From Litomosoides sigmodontis (Eukaryota > Nematoda > Chromadorea > Rhabditida > Onchocercidae): a stretch of DNA of 64,000 nucleotides. The translations under genes and the position numbers were made by a program. The notes beneath the pieces are model-generated. The model made no database searches. It was not told the origin of the DNA and saw only the letters and a list, made by a program, of their open reading frames with translations. The stretch spans positions 9,955,652 to 10,019,651 of the forward strand of contig OY718805.1 of the NCBI GenBank assembly GCA_963070105.1, given 5' to 3'. Positions 12,689-58,600 of this stretch are shown here, one piece after another; position 1 is the stretch's first letter, and every line of letters begins with the position of its first letter.

Positions 12689-15584
12689 ATGACTGGGAGG
12701 AACCGGTTACTATCATCTGAAAAAAGTGTTGCCTTCGATGGACAAAATGAAATTGACGTAAATGTTGTGGAAGAAGAAAGCCTCACAGAAATATCGACAA
12801 ACGGTTCCCTGAAAAGGTTTGGTTACTTTCTACGGCACCTTCACAGTTAGTATTTTTTCAATTTTGCAGGTAGGGGTTAGTGAGTTAAATCGACATTAAA
12901 ATTTATCCATTAACATTTTCATTTTAACGGTTCTTTTTTTAATCTCATGATAACAGATATTTCTTTAGCAATGAATATGAATTAACTGCATTTTATTTCC
13001 AGCTTTTCTAATTCTTCTATACCATCAAATTCTTCGATAGAGACAAGAAAATTAAACATGTCATCGATTGCAATTGCGGAAAAAGATGATCCACGAAAAT
13101 TTCGAATTTATCGTCCATTAAATTGTGAACAATCAGATTCAATGATATATTACCGGTGTTCAAAGTGCGAATCACTGGAAAAGAAAGGTTTTGGTAGTCC
13201 ATTATAAGGCAGCATAATAAAGCAGTGAACTGCGTTTAGTTAATCACAAACGAATTAGTTAGAACCAAGTCTTTGCGTATTTTTTGTGTCTCACTTAACT
13301 CTTATCATCCAACCACCTTCACCTTATTTCGTCATAAATACTGTTTGTCACGTCTTATCGATTAAAGGTGGTATCAGATCAAAACATTACAAACCGTATG
13401 TGAAGACGCTAAACGGAAAGCTGATTGGAAATGCACATCCAGTGCATCATCCCAGCTGTCGTGCAGTAACTAAAGAAATCCAAGAGCTGCAAGAAATGGA
13501 TCGCGCTTGTCGAGCTAAGATTAAGGCTAGTTGTCTAGCACGCGAACATTCGGAAAAACTCGTTAGTCTCTATGTCGTTCATTTGAATCTATTTGGCTGT
13601 TCTATCGCCAAGTATTTCCAGTTGTATCTTCAGCTGAAAATCTATGCTGATAGAGATTTCCAGTAACGCTTGATAACGAATAAAGTTATTCGGAAAATCA
13701 TGTTCGTTGAGATTGAAAAGCTTATCTTCTATTATAGAGCCAACAAAAGATTGTATAAGCTAAGTTTACTACTGGAGCGTGGAATTTGGACATGATATTA
13801 AGTTTTCTTTTAATGGAGAACTTAGGATTGTTTATAACTCATAGTCTCGTCGGACATAATTATTTAGGAGGGACATGCATTTGAACAAAGTTCCGACATC
13901 GACTTCCAGTCAAACTGCAGTTTGCTTAAGAGACCAAAGAGAATGAATATTAAATTCGGTGCTTCGAGTCATGATATAAATGAAAGTGAGCTGTCGGAAG
14001 TTGACCATTTATTGAGGTATTTTTTGAAAAAATAGAACTGAATTTACATGCTTTTGCTTTTAAAGGTCGACCGAAATTGTTTTTCAGTCCTAACTTGCAG
14101 AATAGTGTAGATAATTTGTGTGACGATTTGTTCAGGTTTATAAGCGAAGCCTCCATCAATGATGCTGCGCAAACAACAAATCAAATTGGGTAAGTACATA
14201 AGTTACAATAATTATGGTACTTTTCAAAACTTTCCAGTTTTTTGCGTATCATGATTTCTAATTTCAGTATTTATCCTACCGCCACTTCATTGTTGTCCAA
14301 GAGTATTGGTTATTCTTCACTGATTGTACCAGAGCCTGACGGAATGTATGTACGAATTTATGATGCAGATGATAAACTAGCTGACAAGGAGGTATCGTGC
14401 TATCACTGTTCTCAATGTGATGATTTGTATCAAAAAAGTGATAACGGTATGTACGAGAAAGTCTATTTCATTTGAAGTTCTGGAAACAGCTACTCAGCAC
14501 TCAGCCTTTCTTCATTTTCTAACTTTTGTCAGTAAATATGCTATGGATCTCTGCTTTTTGGTGTTTAAGAATGATCATCTCTTGAAAAGAACTAGTTTAT
14601 GTGTTTAGATATTTCGGAACTTTTTCACACTTTTCAGACTCTATGCGCACTGTACTGAAAGCAGAAAATGATTTAGTGATTGATTATCCAACGCATCATG
14701 CGGAATGTTCTCCAACATCACTGGAATCGCTGAGACAGCTGGGCGACGATTTGAAGAATTTCTGCGTTGTAGCAAATCACAGGATTATTTCTCTGAAAAC
14801 AGTACTTGTATGTACCATTACATTAGTGAAAACATTGATGAAGGATATCATTTATGAGAACCAGTTTGTCTGCGGCGAAGTAAAGGAGATAGAATTCTTC
14901 ACTTAAGGGGAAGGAACGATTTGTTACCTTTATGGGCCATGATATTTAGCAAATCTTGTAGTTTATGGAAGATTTTGTACATATATATTTTTATCAAATT
15001 TGTTCAGACATTTCAGTATGAAGAGTACAAGGATTTCAGGCATCTGACGGGTTAAGAAAGTTTTTTCAGGAATCTGAATTCGATGTTTTTCATGAGCCCG
15101 ATGAAGACTTCCTTATTGGTGGATCGGATGAACAGAGTTGGGATACAACAATTGTAGATGAAGGAATGTTGGTGCTATCAAATATTTAACAATCATCTTT
15201 TTTTCAATATTACTTAAATTTTGAATTGTTTTACTTTATAAAGGACTCTTTAGCTTGTAAAAAAGTTTTAGTAGAACTTTCTTGTCATTCCACGTTTTTC
15301 CCTTTTGCTATGTCGTAGTCGTTTATAGCCGAACATCTTTTTTCCATTTCAGTGTCATAAATCCTGCATCAGTTTCGAAACCTCAAGAACAACGGTGCTT
15401 TTGCAGACGTCTTTATGAAGAAAATTTAGAGTTATATCAAGAAATGTTGAGGAGTGTGGATGAAATGAGATCAATGGTCAATGAAATGAAGCATATTTCT
15501 GGTGCAAATGCTGAATATTATATCGATGATAGCCAGATTTTGGAAGAGGGTGATAATAGTACACTGTATGTTGTAGATGAGTAA
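12689..15584 (+). CDS. First tandem paralog with two Cys-x2-Cys...His-x3-Cys modules
   Basis: Predicted exons are 12689-12816, 13003-13187, 13368-13561, 13868-14016, 14088-14189, 14268-14446, 14638-14801, 15070-15171 and 15353-15584. Exons 1-8 join in phase. Module A has IYYRCSKCESL (Cys95, Cys98) and, after the next splice, NAHPVHHPSC (His131, Cys135), followed by a charged helix with the core ELQEMDRACRAKI. Module B has SCYHCSQCDDL and then DYPTHHAEC. Each Cys pair is preceded by E(K/P)D...RIY. The C-terminal exon encodes an acidic probable coiled coil (about LELYQEMLRSVDEMRSMVNE). Spacing suggests a zinc-binding finger loosely like FLYWCH or other C2HC types, so a nuclear, nucleic-acid-binding role is plausible but unproven. 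The last junction (15171 to 15353) does not close in phase with a GT donor. The downstream paralog has a good phase-2 donor at the matching place. Either an unusual splice is used or the 3' end has decayed. Confidence 0.7.
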
Positions 15585-16404
15585 TTTATTTTTATTAGTA
15601 GCTTTTATAAATTGTTTGAGTGCATGCCTTGCCAAGCAGTTTGTGTTGAGCGGATTTTTGCATCCACTCTATTGCTCGCATTGTTACCGCCATTATGCCA
15701 AGAAAAAATGTATTATTTGTTTCTTTGGAGTGTGATGTTTCTGAAGAGGAGAAGTCAAATTTACTATAAATCTAAGCTAATGAGATTGAAGTAAGCTGAT
15801 AAAACTGAAAAAGCGGTAACCTTGTTGAAAAGAAGTTTCATGATCTGTTTATACCTGTTAATGGGTTACACAACGCATCATTATTTATCTTTGTAAATTA
15901 TTATCACTAATTGAATGCTATGGTCGCTTTATTATTGTCTTTAAGCCTTCTCTTGACTTACAGATAATAATAAAGCTTGGCATTCACATAATAGTAAGTT
16001 ATACAGAATTTAGTTGCACGAAAGCGTTAGCAAAACTGTTATCTAGGTTATGTGAGAATGCTAAGCGTTTGAATTAATGAGATCGGAAATCTCTTCCAAC
16101 TGGTTCTTGCTTGCGTATATCCATTTTTTTATCAAATGACAAAAATCTCAACAAACGTGGCATACTTTTGTCACAATTGTTTGTACATTGTATTTGTCAA
16201 ATTTTTATTGAAGTAAATTTTTTGACATTCTCTTGAAGATGGACGAAATTGAAATGTTTTATGCATAATTTCATTATTTGAAAAATTGGTTTAGCTATAT
16301 GTTTTCGTAAATGAATGGGCCATATAATTTGTATTTTTCATGTTCGGTACGTTGGAACATTTTTGTAAAAAACAAAATTTGGTGGTGCACATAGTTGGAG
16401 AGAT
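15585..16404. other. Intergenic gap between the tandem paralogs
   Basis: About 820 bp without a credible exon. It contains an AATAAA-like signal near 15,969 and is A+T-rich throughout. It presumably holds the 3' untranslated region of the upstream copy and the promoter of the downstream one. Confidence 0.6.
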
Positions 16405-19400
16405 ATGTCGGCAGTCGCGGAAAAAGGGTTACTTTATTTTTTATTCAACCAACGACTACTTTGAAGCAACGCTTGATAACCACTCAGTTTAAGTGTACTT
16501 TCCTACTGCTACGGGAAAAGACCTGTATTAGCTTCGTATCTTTAATTACTAGGGAAAATATATACTTTTTCCTTAGAAGCTTTTTATTTTGAATTTCTCT
16601 TCAAGTTTTGTTATTTAGCAATGATGATTCTTCACTAGCAGAGCAACCGTCCGAACAATTTGATGACAAAGAAGAAATGTCCTCAACTGTTTTTCTGTCG
16701 GAACAAGGCACATCGAAACAAGTAAAGGAGTTATTGGCTATTAACAATTAAAAAATTAGCAGAATCTGACTGTTTTATAAACGTTTAATTTAGTCTGATC
16801 ATTTAGTTATGGTTTTTTTCTGCCGCAATTACTCTTTTCTTGCCTAAAGACATTTGTTTCCTCTGATACACGCTGTATATATCAGACGTTACAGGTCAAA
16901 AAATTGCTTTACAATTATATGGTTACCTTGAAGCTCCAACCAACTTATGAGTTTAATAAAGGTGCTGAGTTCTTTTTAGGATGACGAAACGAGCCTTAAT
17001 GGCGATAACACGTCTATTAATACAATGGCGATGCCCCTTAGCCGTAAACGAAATCGTCGTATTTGGACTCTTGTCAGTGGAGATGGTCACGATTTTAGAT
17101 GCAATGCATGCAAAAGAATTATCAAATGCTGTTCACCTACAAATATAACTCGACACTATGCAAACAATCATCCCGAAGTACTGAAAACGGAGGAAATACC
17201 AGTCGATGTGGCGAAAGAATCGATTGAACCCGTTTTAGAGGTGCACCTCCTTTACTGTAGTTGTAATGTTCGATGTGCAGTGTACAGTTATTTTTTGGTT
17301 TTTTTTGTATTAATTTCTCACATATTTACGAGTTAGAAACTTTTTCCAAGAGTGGAAGGAATGCATTATCGCAAAAAATTGCGGATTTGCGTAACACGCA
17401 TGAAATTTGGGGACAAAACATTAGGCAGTAATAAAATAAAAAAATCAGCACTACTGTAGAAGCGATGGAATCATCTACCGTTAAGTGTTTGAGAAGTTAA
17501 ATTTTTTCTATTGTGATAAATTTGTTGCCGTCCAGATCTTTCATGGTTCCATGTTAACTAAATGCAATATGATTGCGAACTATGAAGTTTTCTCTAATTT
17601 TGAAAATGCTGTCTTAAATACAATTTCATTTTAAGGAAAATTTTAAAGATGCAATGGTAACTGCAAATGATATACCGATGTCTAGTGGCACTAGAATGAA
17701 GTAAGTAAACTTTTGAACTCTATTATTTGTAACGTAATTTCGTTTTTCTATTCTGGGTTTTGCAAATTTCATTTACTATCACCAATTCGTAGTTGATAAG
17801 CTCGTCTAAGAATAACATAAAGTGATATATTTATGCCGTTTTCATGAAGGTTCTTTTGAAAATAGTTTTTTCGTTGATTGCTTGAACACTGCTTTTAGGT
17901 AAAAAACTACGAGGAAAGCAATTAGCTATAATTTTCTTCGTAATTTCTATCGTATAATTTTAATTATTCAAGTAATGTATGAAAATCTGCTAAAAAATTG
18001 AAACGAACTGTAGCGACAACATTGTGCATTTAATGTGGTGTAAATTTTGTTTCCTTCTCACTCTCCGCGTTGTTTTAATGAAGGAACAGATTTAGTTCTT
18101 GAATGAAATTTAATATGCAATTCGAATTTTCTGACGCTAATGGAAATCTGTTTGTACCAAAAATATGCTGATTTAATATCCATATACATATGAGGTTATT
18201 TATAGTACTGGCAAAATAGATTGGTCTTCACCATCTATACAGAAGATTTTGGAAAAGATCGCATCCAGAGAGTTAACAGAAAAAATGGGAACAGATATGA
18301 TTGCATATAAAACTGGGTGTCAACTGTCACAGTCAACCGTTCGGAAACGAGTCCACTGTTTACTCGAAGATAGAGTAAGTCTGACTCTTTAGCGATCTTT
18401 GAGATTTCTTCGCTATACAGTTTTGTTGTGCTAACTCGTACGGACTTCTCATTTTTTTCTTCATTTGCAACACCATGTTGCGTTTTATCTATTAGTAAAT
18501 GGAAATGAACACTGTTCAAAAATGTATATGTATATAGCTTCAGTATAAGAAAACGTGAGACCAAATTTATCCGGGATTTCTCGCCACTTGTATTTGTTAA
18601 AATTTAATCCAATTTCAGTTTGGAACATATTCATTATCAAAAAAAAATAATGCAATAATGGCACAACCTCTGCAAGTGAATGATATAAATGAAACAGTTA
18701 CCTATGTGGGTGTGGATAATGCTATTGGGGGGAGGAAAAAATTGATGAAATTAGATGGCAAGAAGAATCGAGAACAACAATTATCGGAAGGGTAAGTCAT
18801 GTCATAAAAATTTTGGGGGAAATGGTCAGATTTTGGTAATGGTCAGATTTTCATACTAGTATTTATAGAACTGGGAGTTCACTTCCTGTACCGCCAATAC
18901 CACGACAGGTTCGTTCTCTACGACTAAGTCGTTCGTCTATAGTAATTCCGGAAAAAGATGATCCATCGAAAGTACGAATATATCGATGCAGTGCTTACGG
19001 ACGAGGTAAGCAGGGTGCAACGTGCTACTATCGGTGCTCCAAATGTGACTCACTTGCGAACAACAAGTTAAAAAATTCCGGTGTGTTTTGCTCCCTTCTC
19101 GTTTTAACAATTTTCAAATGTTGGGCTTAAGTAATTCAGCGAATGCTGTTCATCTTGAAGTGAATTTTTTTTTTATACAGGCGCATCTGCAACTGAACGT
19201 ACAAAGCGTTATTTTGCTCACATTAAGACGAAGGATGGGAGGATAATCGGAAATGCTTACCCAGAACACTTGCCGGAATGTAAGCCAGTACCAAAAGAAG
19301 TTCAGCAGCTTCAGGAAATTGATCGCGCTTGCCGGGCCAGGATTCAAGCTGGTAATTTAACGCCCGAAGCAGCCAGAAAGCTAGTTCGTTTTTTCATTTC

Positions 19401-21748
19401 ATTCCATGCTTTGAAATGAAATAGTAAGCGCGAGTGTGAAAATTGGATATATGGAATTTCCATTTTTTTTTGCATATTTAGGGAGCTTTAGTGGCGCAAA
19501 AAAACCGTGAACTGAAAAGGCATATCAAGGACGACGACACTTTTCCGGACAAATGGAAATCACTTCCTAAGAAATACAGTCGGCTGTGTCATCAAGCTGA
19601 AAGGATGAGGAAGCAAAAGAATCGACAACTTTTAAGGTTGAGCTGGCTTCTATGCATGATGGAAATCTATTTACCTCACAAGTGGAGATTGCTTGAAAAC
19701 TCGACGCAATTTCGAGCTTTCAGTGTTGATCCTTGAAAAAGTGTATATGGCTCAAAACACTAGAAATCATTTCACATTTCTATACTGGGCAATGCCTTCT
19801 TGTGTATAAAATTTCCCTTCCTTCCTATGCTTTTCTGTAGTAGGTAAGATGCTGGAAACTGTGGTTATAGTGAAGATCCGATGCAAATGAGTAAGCTTTT
19901 CCTACAAACAAGTGCTTGAAATAATCTTTCTATAGTTCTAGTGTATTGTTTCAGAATGATGAAGAATGAACAAGGTGATGGTGAAACTGAAGAAGATCAA
20001 AGGTTTGCTTTTGCCTTTCTCTGAGAAGCTTGATTTTCCAGCTTAACCAATTTAGTTGTAAGTGCCAGTAAAACCACATATATGAAACTGAAATATTGAT
20101 ATCGAAGAATTCCTAAGTTTTCATGCGCGTTCGGGTTATGAAAGTGGGGTAATTTCGTAAAATTGCAGCGGTGTTGCACATGAAGCAGAAATTATGAGTG
20201 GGCGTTTCAAACATCCACCACTGATCATCTTTGAACCAGACGGTCAGGCGGCTCGCATTTACCGTATTAATGGAAAATCGGATAAGCTTGGTATCGTCTA
20301 CTATCGATGTTCAAAATGTGATGTTCTTTGCCGAAGACACAGAAGGATGGGGAATGTGGAAGGTTCGATTACTTTCCTTTCAAATAACCTCCTGTGAATG
20401 CATTGCTATCATCGCATACTAGCTGTTAGAAGAAAACTGAAAGCCTTTTTAAAAAACAAGTGAATTCTATATCTTTTCATTTATGTGCCTTAATTTGCCC
20501 TTTTTTATCACAGGACTTTCTTCATCCAGATTATTTCATCGAGGAATGAAAGTATAAAATTAAGGCACTATGTTACCAATTTTTGTTCCACATTTATCAA
20601 AAAGAGGGATAGGGATCCACGGTAGCGTAATTATACGATTTTATCAAAATGCAGAGATTTCGTATTTATAATTGTTTCATGAATATCGGCTTCAGCGGGA
20701 AGAAGTAAACAAATAAAACTTAGAGCCAAGTTTTACATCTTCAGGAATGACTCGGGCAACGGTAAAGGTTGAACAGAATGAAATTCTCGAGAATATGTAT
20801 CCTGCACATCATGACGAATGCGAAGTCTTTACACTTGATATGGTTAAAAATTTGGCAGAAAATCTCGATCGTTTCTATTTTGCTAAAGATTATGAATCTA
20901 TTATCCATGATTCTGCTAAAACGGTATTTTTTTCAATTCTTGTAACTTTGTAAATTGACGATCATCAACTGACTGATTTATCATAAATGGGTGGGTAGCT
21001 GGATTCGCATTCACAATCTTAAATATGCGATCCGAAGATCTTGTATATTCAGCTTTCTCTCTGCCTCTATTTGCGTTTTTAGGCCATTGTCAGTATTAAA
21101 CTAGTGAAAACTTCCCGCTGCAAAAAATCAAAAATTTCAGGATCTCCGGTTTGCAGATGGTACACTAATCTCAAAAAATCAGATACCCATTGTTTCCGCA
21201 GTTGAACATGTTGAAGATGACGTAGTAGTGGACATTAGTAATGTTGCAAATACTGAAGAAGTGGATGACGATGCATGGGAAACGATTCTGAATGAGGATG
21301 TATTGAACGTTAGGTGAAAGTTGTTGTTTACTCGCAATTTTTAATTTTTAAACGTAATTTACAACTTTTTGTTTCTTTTTATCTACATTTTGGTCAACGT
21401 ATTAATTTCACTCTAAACCGTATTACAAGCTGCATTTAGGAGACCTTTTCATAAACATAGTATTGTGACATTAGGTTGTTTTCCATCGACATTATCGTTT
21501 ATTTTTTCATGAGTTTTATTTGATCCTTTTAATTTTGCAGAGCGGAAGATCATGAAGGACCTATAGGTTCCACATGCCAAGGTTACTATGAAGCAAACAT
21601 GGCATTGCGCCGCGATATGGTTCGTTGTCTGGAAGAAATGAGAACACTGCGAACAGAAATGAGAAATATGTTAGAAGAGGGGAAATTGCAGTATGTGGAA
21701 GTAGATGATGATCATTACGAAGAAATTATTGTTGATGAAAATGATTGA
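16405..21748 (+). CDS. Second tandem paralog: BED zinc finger, HTH-like segment and two Cys/His modules
   Basis: Fourteen exons are predicted: 16405-16427, 16619-16721, 16980-17240, 17636-17700, 18206-18374, 18619-18791, 18869-19080, 19181-19383, 19482-19636, 19955-20002, 20169-20362, 20745-20923, 21141-21313 and 21541-21748. Every junction is in phase, giving 721 residues; the 23 nt first exon is the least certain. Residues 63-107 form a BED finger (Trp71, Cys83, Cys86, His101, His106), a DNA-binding fold typical of hAT-type transposases and their domesticated descendants. QLSQSTVRKRVHCLLEDR near 190-207 looks like a helix-turn-helix recognition region. Module A uses Cys321, Cys324, His365 and Cys369; module B uses Cys518, Cys521, His557 and Cys561. 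The region around 600-650 is acidic and the last exon is a probable coiled coil. Exons 7-14 correspond in content and mostly in splice phase to exons 2-9 of the upstream gene, so the pair arose by tandem duplication. A chromatin or transcription role is inferred, and no transposase catalytic domain is seen. Confidence 0.85.
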
Positions 21749-23601: not shown

Positions 23602-26600
23602 ATGTCAGATCTTCGAGAGTTTGTCAGTCAGCAAAAGGCTAAAAATTCACCTTTTGGTGCAACTACGATATCAGCTTCATTCCCATCAATTAAAACTATA
23701 CGATCTAAACTTACATGGAGCTTGAATGGATTTTCGTTGGCTGATTCTGACCAAGAAATACTGATCGAATCAACTGGCGAAACGAATGGGCAGTTGCCCC
23801 AATCACGTAATCGTAGAAATAGTGGATGGTTCGGTTCCATCTCCAGTGACGAATCCGTTTTTGGGTCTTTTTTTTATTTCGTTTTTACGAGTAATTCGAA
23901 TATGCAATATTGGAATTTTAGCAGCTTTCAAATATCTTGAACATTTACTTTAAATCTCAAAACTGAGGATATTCAAGATTTAAACAACAGAAATGTTACC
24001 TTTATGAATTTATGGGTACTTCTGGGATCGTTTTCTGCACGTTATACTTAAAGCATTCATTAAAAAGTTTTATTTCACCTGGCTAATTACTGTGAAACCT
24101 TAATGGTATGTTAAATAATAGTGGAGAATTGTTTTCAGCAAAAGTTATCAGTGTTGCAGGATGTCAAAAATGCAAAGGATTGTCGCATTTTTCATGTCAA
24201 TAGGAGCGGCTTTTATTTGCTTCGGAATAGTTAGTAAATTTTGATTCACAAAATGATTGCATATGCCACCTTGCATTATACTTTAAAATGATGGAAGGAA
24301 ATATTTTAGGCGAAGTACATTTGGATGCCTTATTTCAGAACAATCATCGACATTTTGTAATTGGTTCATACTTATGAGGAATGGAAAATGATTCGTTAAG
24401 CAGGTGTATTTTTTTCCATTTAAATTATGAAAAACATTTCTAGGCTGTTGTTCTGCTACCCGCTATAGTTATACAAGCTCGGAAATTTGCTGCTCTTAAT
24501 AGTCTTGGATCGATCATGTTGATTTTGAGGTTCGTTAATTTGTTCATATTTTCTTACTCCCTCTTCACATCTTCCGGATTTAAGAAAGTTTTAAACTGTT
24601 ATAAATTACAAGAACTGCTCGATATAATTAGAAAATTTAATCTGACTAAAAAAGATTTAACATTTCTCTAAATGTCGCTTTACAAAACTGAAATGAAAAA
24701 GATTATTGCAACTGGAAATAAGTAAAGATTAATTCCACCTGCTCCCTTATTTGGAGAAATGGATCGATAGATGGTGTAAATTTTGTCTGTTTTTTAGTTT
24801 CGGTTTTTTATGGGGGCCAATGAGCTATTTAAAACATATGTTCTCGGAACAACGAAGGCATGTTACGGTAGCCTATTTATCAACCGTTGTAGCTACACTG
24901 TATTCCGGTCTATGGGTATGTTCATATTTTTTTAAATGTGCTTGTGTGTTTTTATCGTATAAGTTTTATTAGACTGTACAGATGAAGTTTAGCATAATAG
25001 TAGATGAATGTAAGAGAAGACAGTTAAATTTTATAATTAGGATTTCTTGGTTTTCTTTCATTCACTTATTTTTTTCGAACCTTGTTCCCCTTCCATTTTT
25101 ACTTCCATAAATAAAAAATTTTAGTTTCTTTTTGTGGTTACACTTCAAGGAAACTGTCACAAATTGTGAAATTGAGGAGGTTCAGAAACAGTTTTATATC
25201 AGCTTTACTCGTTTTAATCCGGTTATTTTAGGAGTTAGATTGAATTTTTCTGAGCTGATAAAGGAAGAAATCATTCAGATTTATAGCACATTTCTTGCTT
25301 TTATTTTAACTAACGGTAATTTGGAGATTGTGTGAAATGCATTAGTCACTCGTGTTAAAAGTATGTGGATGATTTTATCAGTAATCGGAAATTGACAAGT
25401 AAATAATGACAAATGGCAAGTCTTAATCGCTTTCTCATTTTTATAACTTTTTTATTAATTAGTTTCTTTTACATATGCTTCCTTAGGAAAGAAGAATTTG
25501 AAAACTGAACTAAGCAAAAGTTTCTTTCTTTGGAAGCGGAAATTAAGCGATAATTTTCTGATATGTATTAGTGATATTAAATAGCGATGTATGTAACAGA
25601 TTTATTTTACTACTCTGATGAGATTGATTTTTCCCTTTCGCATACTTTTTCCTTTACATCATCACTAAGCTGACCGATCGTTTATTTCATTCGGATTCGA
25701 TTTTATACAACTTGATGAAAGACTAAATCGTACCGATATGAAGCTATGTTGTCATCATTTTCACGAATTCTTCATAATTAATCTGTAAAATTTTCGCTAA
25801 AAGCAATTGTTAATATTAACCTAAAAAAAAATATAAATGAAACTATTAGTTTATGACTTATTAGATTAGCATTTTGATTCAGTACTTATCAATATCATCA
25901 TTCATTCATCTGATCTATCTTAGTACTATTAATACTTCACAGCAAATCTAACCTGTCCATCTCCATCAATGTCAACTTCAGCCATAATTTCGTCTACTTC
26001 TTGATCACTGAATTGTTCACCCATATGAGTCATAAAATATCGAAATTCTTCAGCTGTAATGTATCCATTACCGTCTCGATCGAATACCCGAAATGCTTCC
26101 CTTATCATTTCACTATCATTTTCCTTCAATAAAAAGAAAACGTTTGTTAAAAAGTTTTTAGAAAAATAATTTAGAATTTTGGATTTTTCTGTTCTAAATT
26201 TTTTGAAAATCTTCATTATTTCACGAGATATAAAAGGACTCAAAAAAAGGTTGAATGAAATCAGTGAGCAATGAATGTCTGGTAAGATGAGATTGCAGCT
26301 TAATTAGTTAATTGACAAAGGTGCGAATGGAAACTTTTTCCAAATTTCAATTAATTTCCTTTCGACTTGTACAACTGTTTGCATTTTTGAATTTCCTTCT
26401 TTCACTGATAGCATTGATATAACATTGTAGTCATTGATAGATAACTAACCTTGCTCATTCGTTTCATCATTTGGCAAAATTCCGGAAAGTCAATAGTACC
26501 ACTACCATCAATATCCACCTCATTAACCATATCCAGTAATTCTTGCTCTGTTGGATTTTGTCCAAGTGATCGCATTGCAACACCAAGTTCTTTTGATGAT

Positions 26601-53930: not shown

Positions 53931-54322
53931 AAATGGCTAATCCTTAATTGGTAGTTGAAAATAAATTAAACGTTGATCAGTAATGATAACAGCTACTAAC
54001 TTACAGTAAGTATGCGAATTCTCGTACATTCCTAATTGGTATATCATTGGTGTTTTTACACACATATAATGAACGATTTATTTTATTGCATCATAAATTA
54101 TTTAAATATTTTAATTGCTCTTGAAGATGAAAAAATTTTTTTCAAATTAATTGATTTCTTAAGTGAAAAGTGAAAATAACCTTTCGTTTATGGTCATTTC
54201 TCAACCAACAATGGCAGCAGGCGATATGTGAAATTAAAAATTAGGTATTAATAATAATAGTAAAAATTAAACAATAAATTAAGTTGTAGCAGTTGTACAT
54301 CTCACAAGTAGCAATAGAAATA

Positions 54323-55632
<1,310 letters not shown>

Positions 55633-58600
55633 GTCATAGGAACAGTTTAATGAGTGGAAAAGTAAGAAATGCTATAAGCGCTTATTTTCAATTATATTTT
55701 AAATTTGAAGTTGAGGAATGTTTTTCCAAACTATTCATTAAGCCATTACTCATCGTCGTAACAGTTGGTTGGTATTCATTCAACTTTTTTTCCTTCAAAA
55801 AACATTTTTAGATTAATTTAGGCATTAAAATTCAATTTTAGTTATTCTAGCAGCTAGGGTGATAAACGGAATTTAAGTGGGATTTGTATTAAAATATGAA
55901 TTAAAATGATCCTCTCTACTTTTAGCTCATTTACTTTCGATAAAGAATTTCGATCTCACAACTTGCCATTACTCTTACAGTTTGCTGGAAGTATTCTAAT
56001 TCTAATTTTAATAAATTGAATACTTTGATTAAAAAGTGATTTATTTCTTCCTGACTTTTCATTTGTTTAATGCAATCAAATTAGTCGAAAGTATGATAAA
56101 TAGTAGGCAGAAAGTATGTGAATAAAATTTCGAAATGATTCCTATTATTTATCAAATTTAAATGAACAGTTGGTGAATTTTTCACATTCCCTCGCTTATC
56201 ACTTATCACTTATCACTTCTGCATTTTAACCCGCTGAAATAGAACTAGCAAACGCAATAAAATGACAACTAATATTTATCATTCTTAATCTTTTAATAAT
56301 ATCATTATTTTCTATCCAAAATTCATTATTCATTGAGCGCAATTTTTAAAGTAAAAGTTTTTGTTTAAATTTAATGATAAATACAATTATTAGATGATAA
56401 GTATCCAATGGCTAAATTTTATCTCAAACAAAAATATTTTTTTTTCCTTGCAAAATTTTACTTCACATTTCTCTCAAATTTTCCAATCGATAAGTGTGAA
56501 TATTGGAAAATAGATATTTAAAAATTTAATTTTTATTCATCTTAATGAGCTCCCTCCGTAAATTTCAGTAATTTTCATCGTCTCTTTAACTTATAAATTA
56601 AAAGTAAATTTAATTTACGTTTTTTTTAAAAAATATTTCAGTGCTTTTTTTATCTCTCTTCCCTCATATTGCCATCTTTTTCTTCCTTTCATATTTTTTC
56701 AAAAAAAAGCGAATTCTTTCCTCCTTATTTTTCTTCCCTTCCTACTTCTCCTGCTTATCTGTCATTCTTTAAGTTTGATCTAAGCAGCTAAGCGTTTCAC
56801 GGCATTTGTTTTTGATCGGTGTGCTTCGTTCGCTGTGCCTTAGTAAAATTAAAATTAACTTCGTACTACAGTTGAGCGTAATTTTTCATTTTCAAATAAC
56901 ATTCACAAAACGAACAAGTTTTGAGAGTTCAAGAGGATGTATTATAATTGAGAGGGAGGGAGGAAGAGAGAGAGAGACAGAAAGTGAAAAAAAAAAGGTA
57001 GAACATGTGGGAAGCAAAAAAGAGAGAATGGAATATAAAATTCTTCAAAAATAATATATTTATATTTTTCGAGCAAAAAAAATGAAATTTTTTATTTTCT
57101 AACAAATTTCATCACAAACTGTTATGCATGCAAAAATTTTCTCAACGAAATTTTTATTTATTTTTTTTTGATTAACTTATGCAATTTTAAATTCTTTTTC
57201 TTTCAAACAAAGCAAGAAAAAGACTGATAACAATAAAATGAAATATTTTACTCCCATAATTCAATAGCTCTGATTGACCAATCAATCAATCACTCATTGT
57301 TCATCCAACTAATGGATGAATTAATGTAATTATTGTGTAATTTACAGTGATCACATGACAAACGTATAGCTATCGGATCTTTCCACAAAATCTAATTAAT
57401 TTAATCGTTCACTTTGATTTATTACACTCTTCAAAGAAAAAAAATGAGGGAAAGAGAAGTTAAATCATATCTATTAAGAGTTACACTAATTACTCAAACA
57501 AACGATGGAAAATTAATTGAATGAAAAACACAAAGGAATCCTTTCTCTCTCACTCCGACTCTCTCCCTCTCCCTCCCTCTGTCTCTCTTTCTCTTTATTG
57601 CTTTTTTCACCTTTCCTTTCTCTTTTCTTCCTCTTATATGCGGTTAATTCTGCCACTTGTAATTTTTACATAAAAGTAATAATTAATTAAAGCAAATCCA
57701 TTTCACCACAGAGGAAGATAGTTCATTTATGAATTTGTTTTGATTGAAATTAAAATGAAATATAGAAAAGTTTAACGCCTATTTTCATTTCATTTCATTT
57801 ACTCAATAAATTTACTTTCTTTTTTAAAAAAAGAAAAAAAAACGAGAAAAACAAAAAGACGAGAAAACGTGATGAAACAATCATTTGTTAATTACCAGCA
57901 AAATTTCATTTCATTCTCTCTTCCTTTCATTAACAGACAGTGAAGCTCGTCAATAAATGTTAACAATGATAAGGGAACTGATAAATATTTAAGGAGGAAG
58001 TGATGTACTGACAAATATTTCATTTTTGCAAACGCTCTTCCATCCTTCCCACGTTCTCCCTCACTCTTTTTCTTCATTGCACAACAATCACCGTTGTTAC
58101 TTCATTCCTGATTTCCACATATTTTCCGGTTCCTGTCCACCATTCATGTTTGATTGTTACTCTGCCCCTTTGACGAGGATTCCAAATGAGTTCCTATTGG
58201 TAAACCTGTTTTTTAATGTCATTTCATTTCTTTGCATGAATAATTAATCCATTTGGAATATGCCATATTTTCCAATTTTCTAATTTTCTTTTCCGTTCAT
58301 CGCTTTTTGTTGTGAAAATTACCTAATTTTATCGCATTTATCATTTGCCCAATAAATAGTTAAAACAACGAATAGTAATAGTTTGTGGTATTTTTACCTT
58401 TTTTTTTTGAATTTTACACATGAACTACCTTAAAAGACATTTGGCAAGCAATTGTTTCATTTCTTTTTTAGTTTCAAATTAAGTATTGGATTACTTGCAT
58501 TACTTTGCTACATTAAGAAGAGAAGTTTCTGAAACCAGTCGAACCCCTTTTCAGATATTCTCTCAATTTTACATCCTAAAAATTCGTACTGCCTAAATTA

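Follow-up and report, generated by a model that had tools for sequence, protein, structure and literature searches.

Two neighbouring genes in a 64,000-nucleotide window of the Litomosoides sigmodontis genome (contig OY718805.1; coordinates count from the first letter of the window) each encode two copies of a module that belongs to the Pfam family PF23674, RYYR-CCHC, a domain already catalogued. The proteins of gene 1 and gene 2 score 152.8 and 151 bits against PF23674, whose cut-off is 27, over two stretches each, and because the E-values are 2.3e-45 and 8.6e-45, a chance origin of the modules is excluded. The public L. sigmodontis protein P0001, in which the two genes are joined, reaches 259.1 bits over four stretches. 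The first-pass annotation had recognised a tandem pair built on a repeated, metal-finger-like module, two copies per gene, and the splice models and Pfam stretches bear this out; its proposal of an undescribed domain family, to be given up if a profile search found a strong hit to a named one, is overturned by the PF23674 match. It had also judged the spacing unlike that of classical C2H2, BED or THAP fingers, and indeed no Pfam row for any of these lies over the modules (hhalign probability to THAP1, 0.11). A search of open-licence papers found none on the RYYR-CCHC family. Taken as a whole, the pair is in our judgement fairly likely to represent duplicated RYYR-CCHC genes whose modules have a WRKY-GCM1/FLYWCH-type fold and whose products are DNA-binding, self-associating regulators.

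Both genes lie on the forward strand. Gene 1 (12689..15584) has nine coding exons specifying 478 amino acids, and gene 2 (16405..21748) has 14 specifying 721; in both splice models all introns are GT-AG and the phases are consistent. Further evidence for gene 1 comes from Pfam and from the orthologues P0008, P0009 and P0013-P0018. The first exon of gene 2 is probably 16405..16427; the start that it provides, MSAVAEKG, is similar to MSVVPEK in Wuchereria (P0005) and MSVVSKE in Loa (P0004). From the splice models and Pfam, module A of gene 1 is divided between 13003..13187 (EKDD, RIY and YYRCSKCESL) and 13368..13561 (HPVHHPSC), and module B between 14268..14446 (CYHCSQCDDL) and 14638..14807 (YPTHHAEC). 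The corresponding halves in gene 2 are 18869..19080 (YYRCSKCDSL) and 19181..19383 (YPEHLPEC) for module A, and 20169..20362 (YYRCSKCDVL) and 20745..20923 (YPAHHDEC) for module B. By eye, all four keep the order first described, E(K/P)D...RIY, Y-x-C-S-x-C-(D/E)-x-L and P-x-H-(H/L)-x-x-C. The second Cys and the His are separated by gaps of 32, 28, 40 and 35 residues, so that the 30-40 originally given holds for three modules but not for module B of gene 1 (28, by hand count). The DRACRA helix, encoded together with the second half of module A, was also correctly placed: in each gene it comes after module A and not after module B.

Across the 15 rows of one alignment (A1), the residues R, Y, C, C, H and C, arranged as R-x-Y, C-x2-C and H-x3-C, are invariant; in a second (A2), from which P0008 and P0010 were dropped and to which two rows ending in H-x-C were added, only C, C and C are. 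Counting the pair, its relatives and its paralogues, 18 of 20 modules end in H-x3-C, 27 to 54 residues past the Cys pair, and two end in H-x-C, at C1:11215338 (31.6 bits, above the Pfam cut-off) and C5:4197808 (23 bits, below it); the H-x-H pair that closes FLYWCH was seen in none. An H-x-C ending is known from some WRKY-type fingers, and these two modules may be bridges. We also note that the H-x-C paralogue at C5:4193000-4202500 lies within an open frame of 427 codons that contains an Asn-rich run.

In each of the four window modules, a phase-1 intron lies in the loop ahead of the second hairpin (13188..13367 and 14447..14637 in gene 1; 19081..19180 and 20363..20744 in gene 2), and the Cys pair and the His-x3-Cys fall in neighbouring exons on either side of it, as the annotation had stated. 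When PF23674 was searched against the worm's own genome (65.9 Mb, 7 contigs) with E values up to 10 accepted, 21 exon matches were obtained, seven in the window pair and 14 in 11 other loci. One locus, C1:1459539, was dropped as noise (E 0.107, two stops), which leaves ten further RYYR-CCHC loci, the sub-threshold C5:4197808 among them, and twelve genes counting the pair. Our own reading of the ten is as follows. C3:7149882 has an intron in the same loop and the same phase as in the window, C1:266704 has one in that loop but in phase 0, C4:6469180 has one in the last hairpin, and C2:1438668 has one immediately 5' of the first Cys whose donor appears to be GC. At the other six (C1:11518602, C2:9469130, C2:1437201, C5:8580004, C1:11215338 and C5:4197808) the ligand region lies in a single exon. 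The description of the intron as ancient and conserved is thus borne out by one other locus but not by the six of ten that lack an intron there, and the in-module intron is a mark of a subgroup, not of the domain. The same genome holds a second tandem RYYR-CCHC pair at about C2:1436600-1439400, each gene with its own helix-turn-helix exon, and a single FLYWCH exon, on contig C4 and away from the pair.

Genes 1 and 2 are paralogues, because large parts of their proteins can be aligned with each other (132 of 488 residues identical, E 1e-46). Three word-limited protein searches, in which 7989, 92 and 7992 candidates were scored, returned 33 proteins, 30 of them with a precomputed RYYR-CCHC label (the others being P0027, P0029 and P0033). 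The 27 that are named by organism all come from filarial, thelaziid or ascaridoid worms, an observation on the returned proteins that makes no claim on C. elegans or other animals. Gene 1 has orthologues in Setaria, Elaeophora, Brugia, Acanthocheilonema, Wuchereria, Loa and Dirofilaria, with fragments in Onchocerca, and gene 2 in Elaeophora, Setaria, Loa, Wuchereria and Dirofilaria. The two D. immitis orthologues carry consecutive locus tags, DINM_007164 and DINM_007165, and their records agree in the length of the longest contig; the tandem arrangement is therefore probably shared.

In a tree of 39 modules, module A of gene 1 joins module A of gene 2 (99/96) and B joins B (99/93), so that the two modules are older than the duplication of the gene. 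The filarial A modules group with both A and B of ascaridoids (95/92); deeper joins are unsure, with long branches. The gene duplication in turn predates the split of the sampled filarial genera. The ancestor probably encoded a helix-turn-helix, module A, the charged helix, module B and a C-terminal helix, a layout that ascaridoid worms still show, and a tandem duplication on the line to filarial worms would have produced two diverged copies of one nematode RYYR-CCHC gene, each with two modules. Gene 2, which has a BED-like finger, would have retained the helix-turn-helix, and gene 1 would have lost it.

The BED-like finger exon of gene 2 (16980..17240; IW...FRCNACK...HYANNHP) gives a Pfam row for zf-C2H2_12 (Spin-doc, PF18658) at E 0.0072 and 16.4 bits, below the cut-off of 27.3, and none for zf-BED. 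The term 'BED-type' appears in the UniRef names of P0002, P0003 and P0005, the motif is present in all six filarial gene 2 proteins, and the predicted P0005 model has strands and a helix over the finger. The helix-turn-helix exon (18206..18374; IDWSSPSIQKILEKIASRELTEKMGTDMIAYKTGCQLSQSTVRKRVHCLLEDR) aligns with stretches of ascaridoid proteins and of paralogues, and a helix-turn-helix recurrently accompanies the RYYR-CCHC module; none was seen in the gene 1 protein. No Pfam family above its cut-off covers the gene 2 helix-turn-helix, and a search for a solved relative of its alignment gave 20 rows, none significant (the DNA-binding protein Rok ranked first, at E 0.3). The stretch of gene 2 that separates module A from module B encodes a charged helical linker (19482..19636), approximately residues 400-451 of P0005, in whose model helices span 393-413 and 422-456. 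The last exon of gene 2 (21541..21748) encodes the C-terminal helix YYEANMALRRDMVRCLEEMRTLRTEMRNMLEE, seen as helix 660-699 in the P0005 model; that of gene 1 (15353..15584) encodes a helical stretch, CFCRRLYEENLELYQEMLRSVDEMRSMVNEM, which aligns with the C termini of gene 2 and of ascaridoid proteins and may form a coiled coil. Below threshold, gene 2 also has Pfam rows for Mg296 and, covering the C-terminal helix, for DUF7097.

That the two genes are in fact one, as in P0001 (1161 amino acids), strikes us as improbable. P0001 is identical to gene 1 at 473 of 478 residues and then continues into gene 2, to which it is 96% identical in the protein search, matching from NDDSS on save one residue and one skipped piece. 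It joins the two through a GTATGT donor in gene 1's last exon (after 15565, to 16619), which removes the stop, and the D. immitis model P0006, by eye, also begins within that exon. However, gene 1 ends at an in-frame stop, gene 1 and gene 2 proteins are separate in Elaeophora, Setaria, Loa and Wuchereria, and D. immitis has a locus tag for each; the evidence on both sides, P0001 included, consists of gene predictions throughout. We also note that in P0001 an in-frame inner donor in module A of gene 2 (G|GTAAGC after 19005, joined to 19181) removes the Cys pair, and that the Toxocara P0010 and Dirofilaria P0028 models likewise have one module without it. Such models are either gene-model errors or isoforms with a dead finger.

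Each module is predicted to be a small beta-rich finger in which one zinc would be held by the C-x2-C that ends the YYRC strand and the H-x3-C past the last hairpin. Most likely it adopts the fold of the WRKY-GCM1/FLYWCH superfamily, but with altered ligand spacing. When the predicted P0024 model was compared by VIA, FLYWCH (2rpr) ranked first among 995 chains, as a weak match, and three WRKY entries were in the list; the P0005 model gave helical matches to residues 365-453 with no finger, and is uninformative on the module. In profile comparisons the module gave a probability of 45.4 against WRKY (none of 300 shuffles reached the score, which also beat three control fingers) and one of 2.72 against FLYWCH (1 of 200 shuffles reached the score); WRKY against FLYWCH, in the same set-up, gave 1.25. 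A search with the module alignment found no solved close relative, returning two unrelated rows at E 0.98 and E 1. The VIA ranking and the WRKY profile match argue against the possible, if in our view less probable, reading that RYYR-CCHC arose independently as a nematode zinc finger, its resemblance to FLYWCH and WRKY being convergent and confined to a YYRC strand and a hairpin. Consistent with such a finger, Foldseek found no PDB match at E <=0.001 for the P0005 and P0024 models and no match among viral models at that threshold for P0024, Pfam scans gave no PF04500 or PF03106 row for the pair or its relatives, P0023 and P0024 included, and the C-x2-C/H-x3-C spacing is unlike both families. 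With E values up to 10 allowed, neither gene 1, gene 2 nor eight related proteins gave a PF04500 row (HMMER filters remove most rows above about 0.1); 2rpr's own sequence reaches 67.4 bits. The annotation's exclusion of FLYWCH by spacing thus holds where membership in Pfam is concerned, but among solved folds FLYWCH ranks highest, weakly, for a predicted relative.

Given their architecture of helix-turn-helix, two fingers and C-terminal helix, the products are most likely self-associating, sequence-specific DNA-binding regulators, in which the helix-turn-helix and fingers would touch DNA and the C-terminal helix would join subunits. The modules could instead bind protein or RNA, for example in a chromatin or silencing complex, which is compatible with either reading of the fold and which we consider rather unlikely: the P0005 model does contain a long charged helical linker and a C-terminal helix, and the DRACRA helix follows only module A, so that the jobs of the two modules may differ, but DNA is the target suggested by the recurrent helix-turn-helix pairing and by the BED-like finger in gene 2. 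If the fold link is true, a motif-labelled family joins a large DNA-binding superfamily, and about a dozen genes in filarial parasites are candidate transcription factors. The possible kinship to DNA-binding FLYWCH/WRKY fingers, together with the frequent, unnamed helix-turn-helix partner, may merit specialist attention.

Elsewhere in the window, 54283-55647 consists almost purely of ATT/AAT trinucleotide repeat (about 1.3 kb), with several frames open, and 25932-26303 on the reverse strand has an open frame with a calmodulin-like EF-hand sequence, named by eye. Rfam, at gathering thresholds, and a tRNA scan of the 64-kb window returned nothing.

When compared with known systems, the modules of genes 1 and 2 share the C-x2-C...H-x3-C signature of PF23674, and nothing essential differs; these genes further have the in-module intron, the BED-like finger and the tandem arrangement. 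THAP domains have the ligand order C2CH, whereas RYYR-CCHC modules have a His before the final Cys. The N-terminal finger of gene 2 resembles the BED-type/Spin-doc finger (PF18658) in its C-x2-C...H-x4-H and leading Trp, although it scores below the Pfam cut-off and is separate from the RYYR-CCHC module. In WRKY (PF03106), a plant family, the YYKC strand and following hairpin align with the module by profile, but the module is without the WRKYGQK strand and the Cys and His spacing differs. FLYWCH has a wider Cys pair and the closing H-x-H among its ligands. The WRKY-GCM1/FLYWCH superfamily, whose members share a four-stranded zinc-finger fold, is said to be the subject of a 2006 paper by Babu et al. 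That paper is referred to in PMC4350883 and PMC12265568, and according to the latter the FLYWCH branch derives from Mutator-type transposons. Although the module differs from FLYWCH (PF04500; 2rpr) in its C-x2-C and H-x3-C and the sequence similarity is weak, the LYR...YWxC of FLYWCH lines up with VYR...YYRC of the module.
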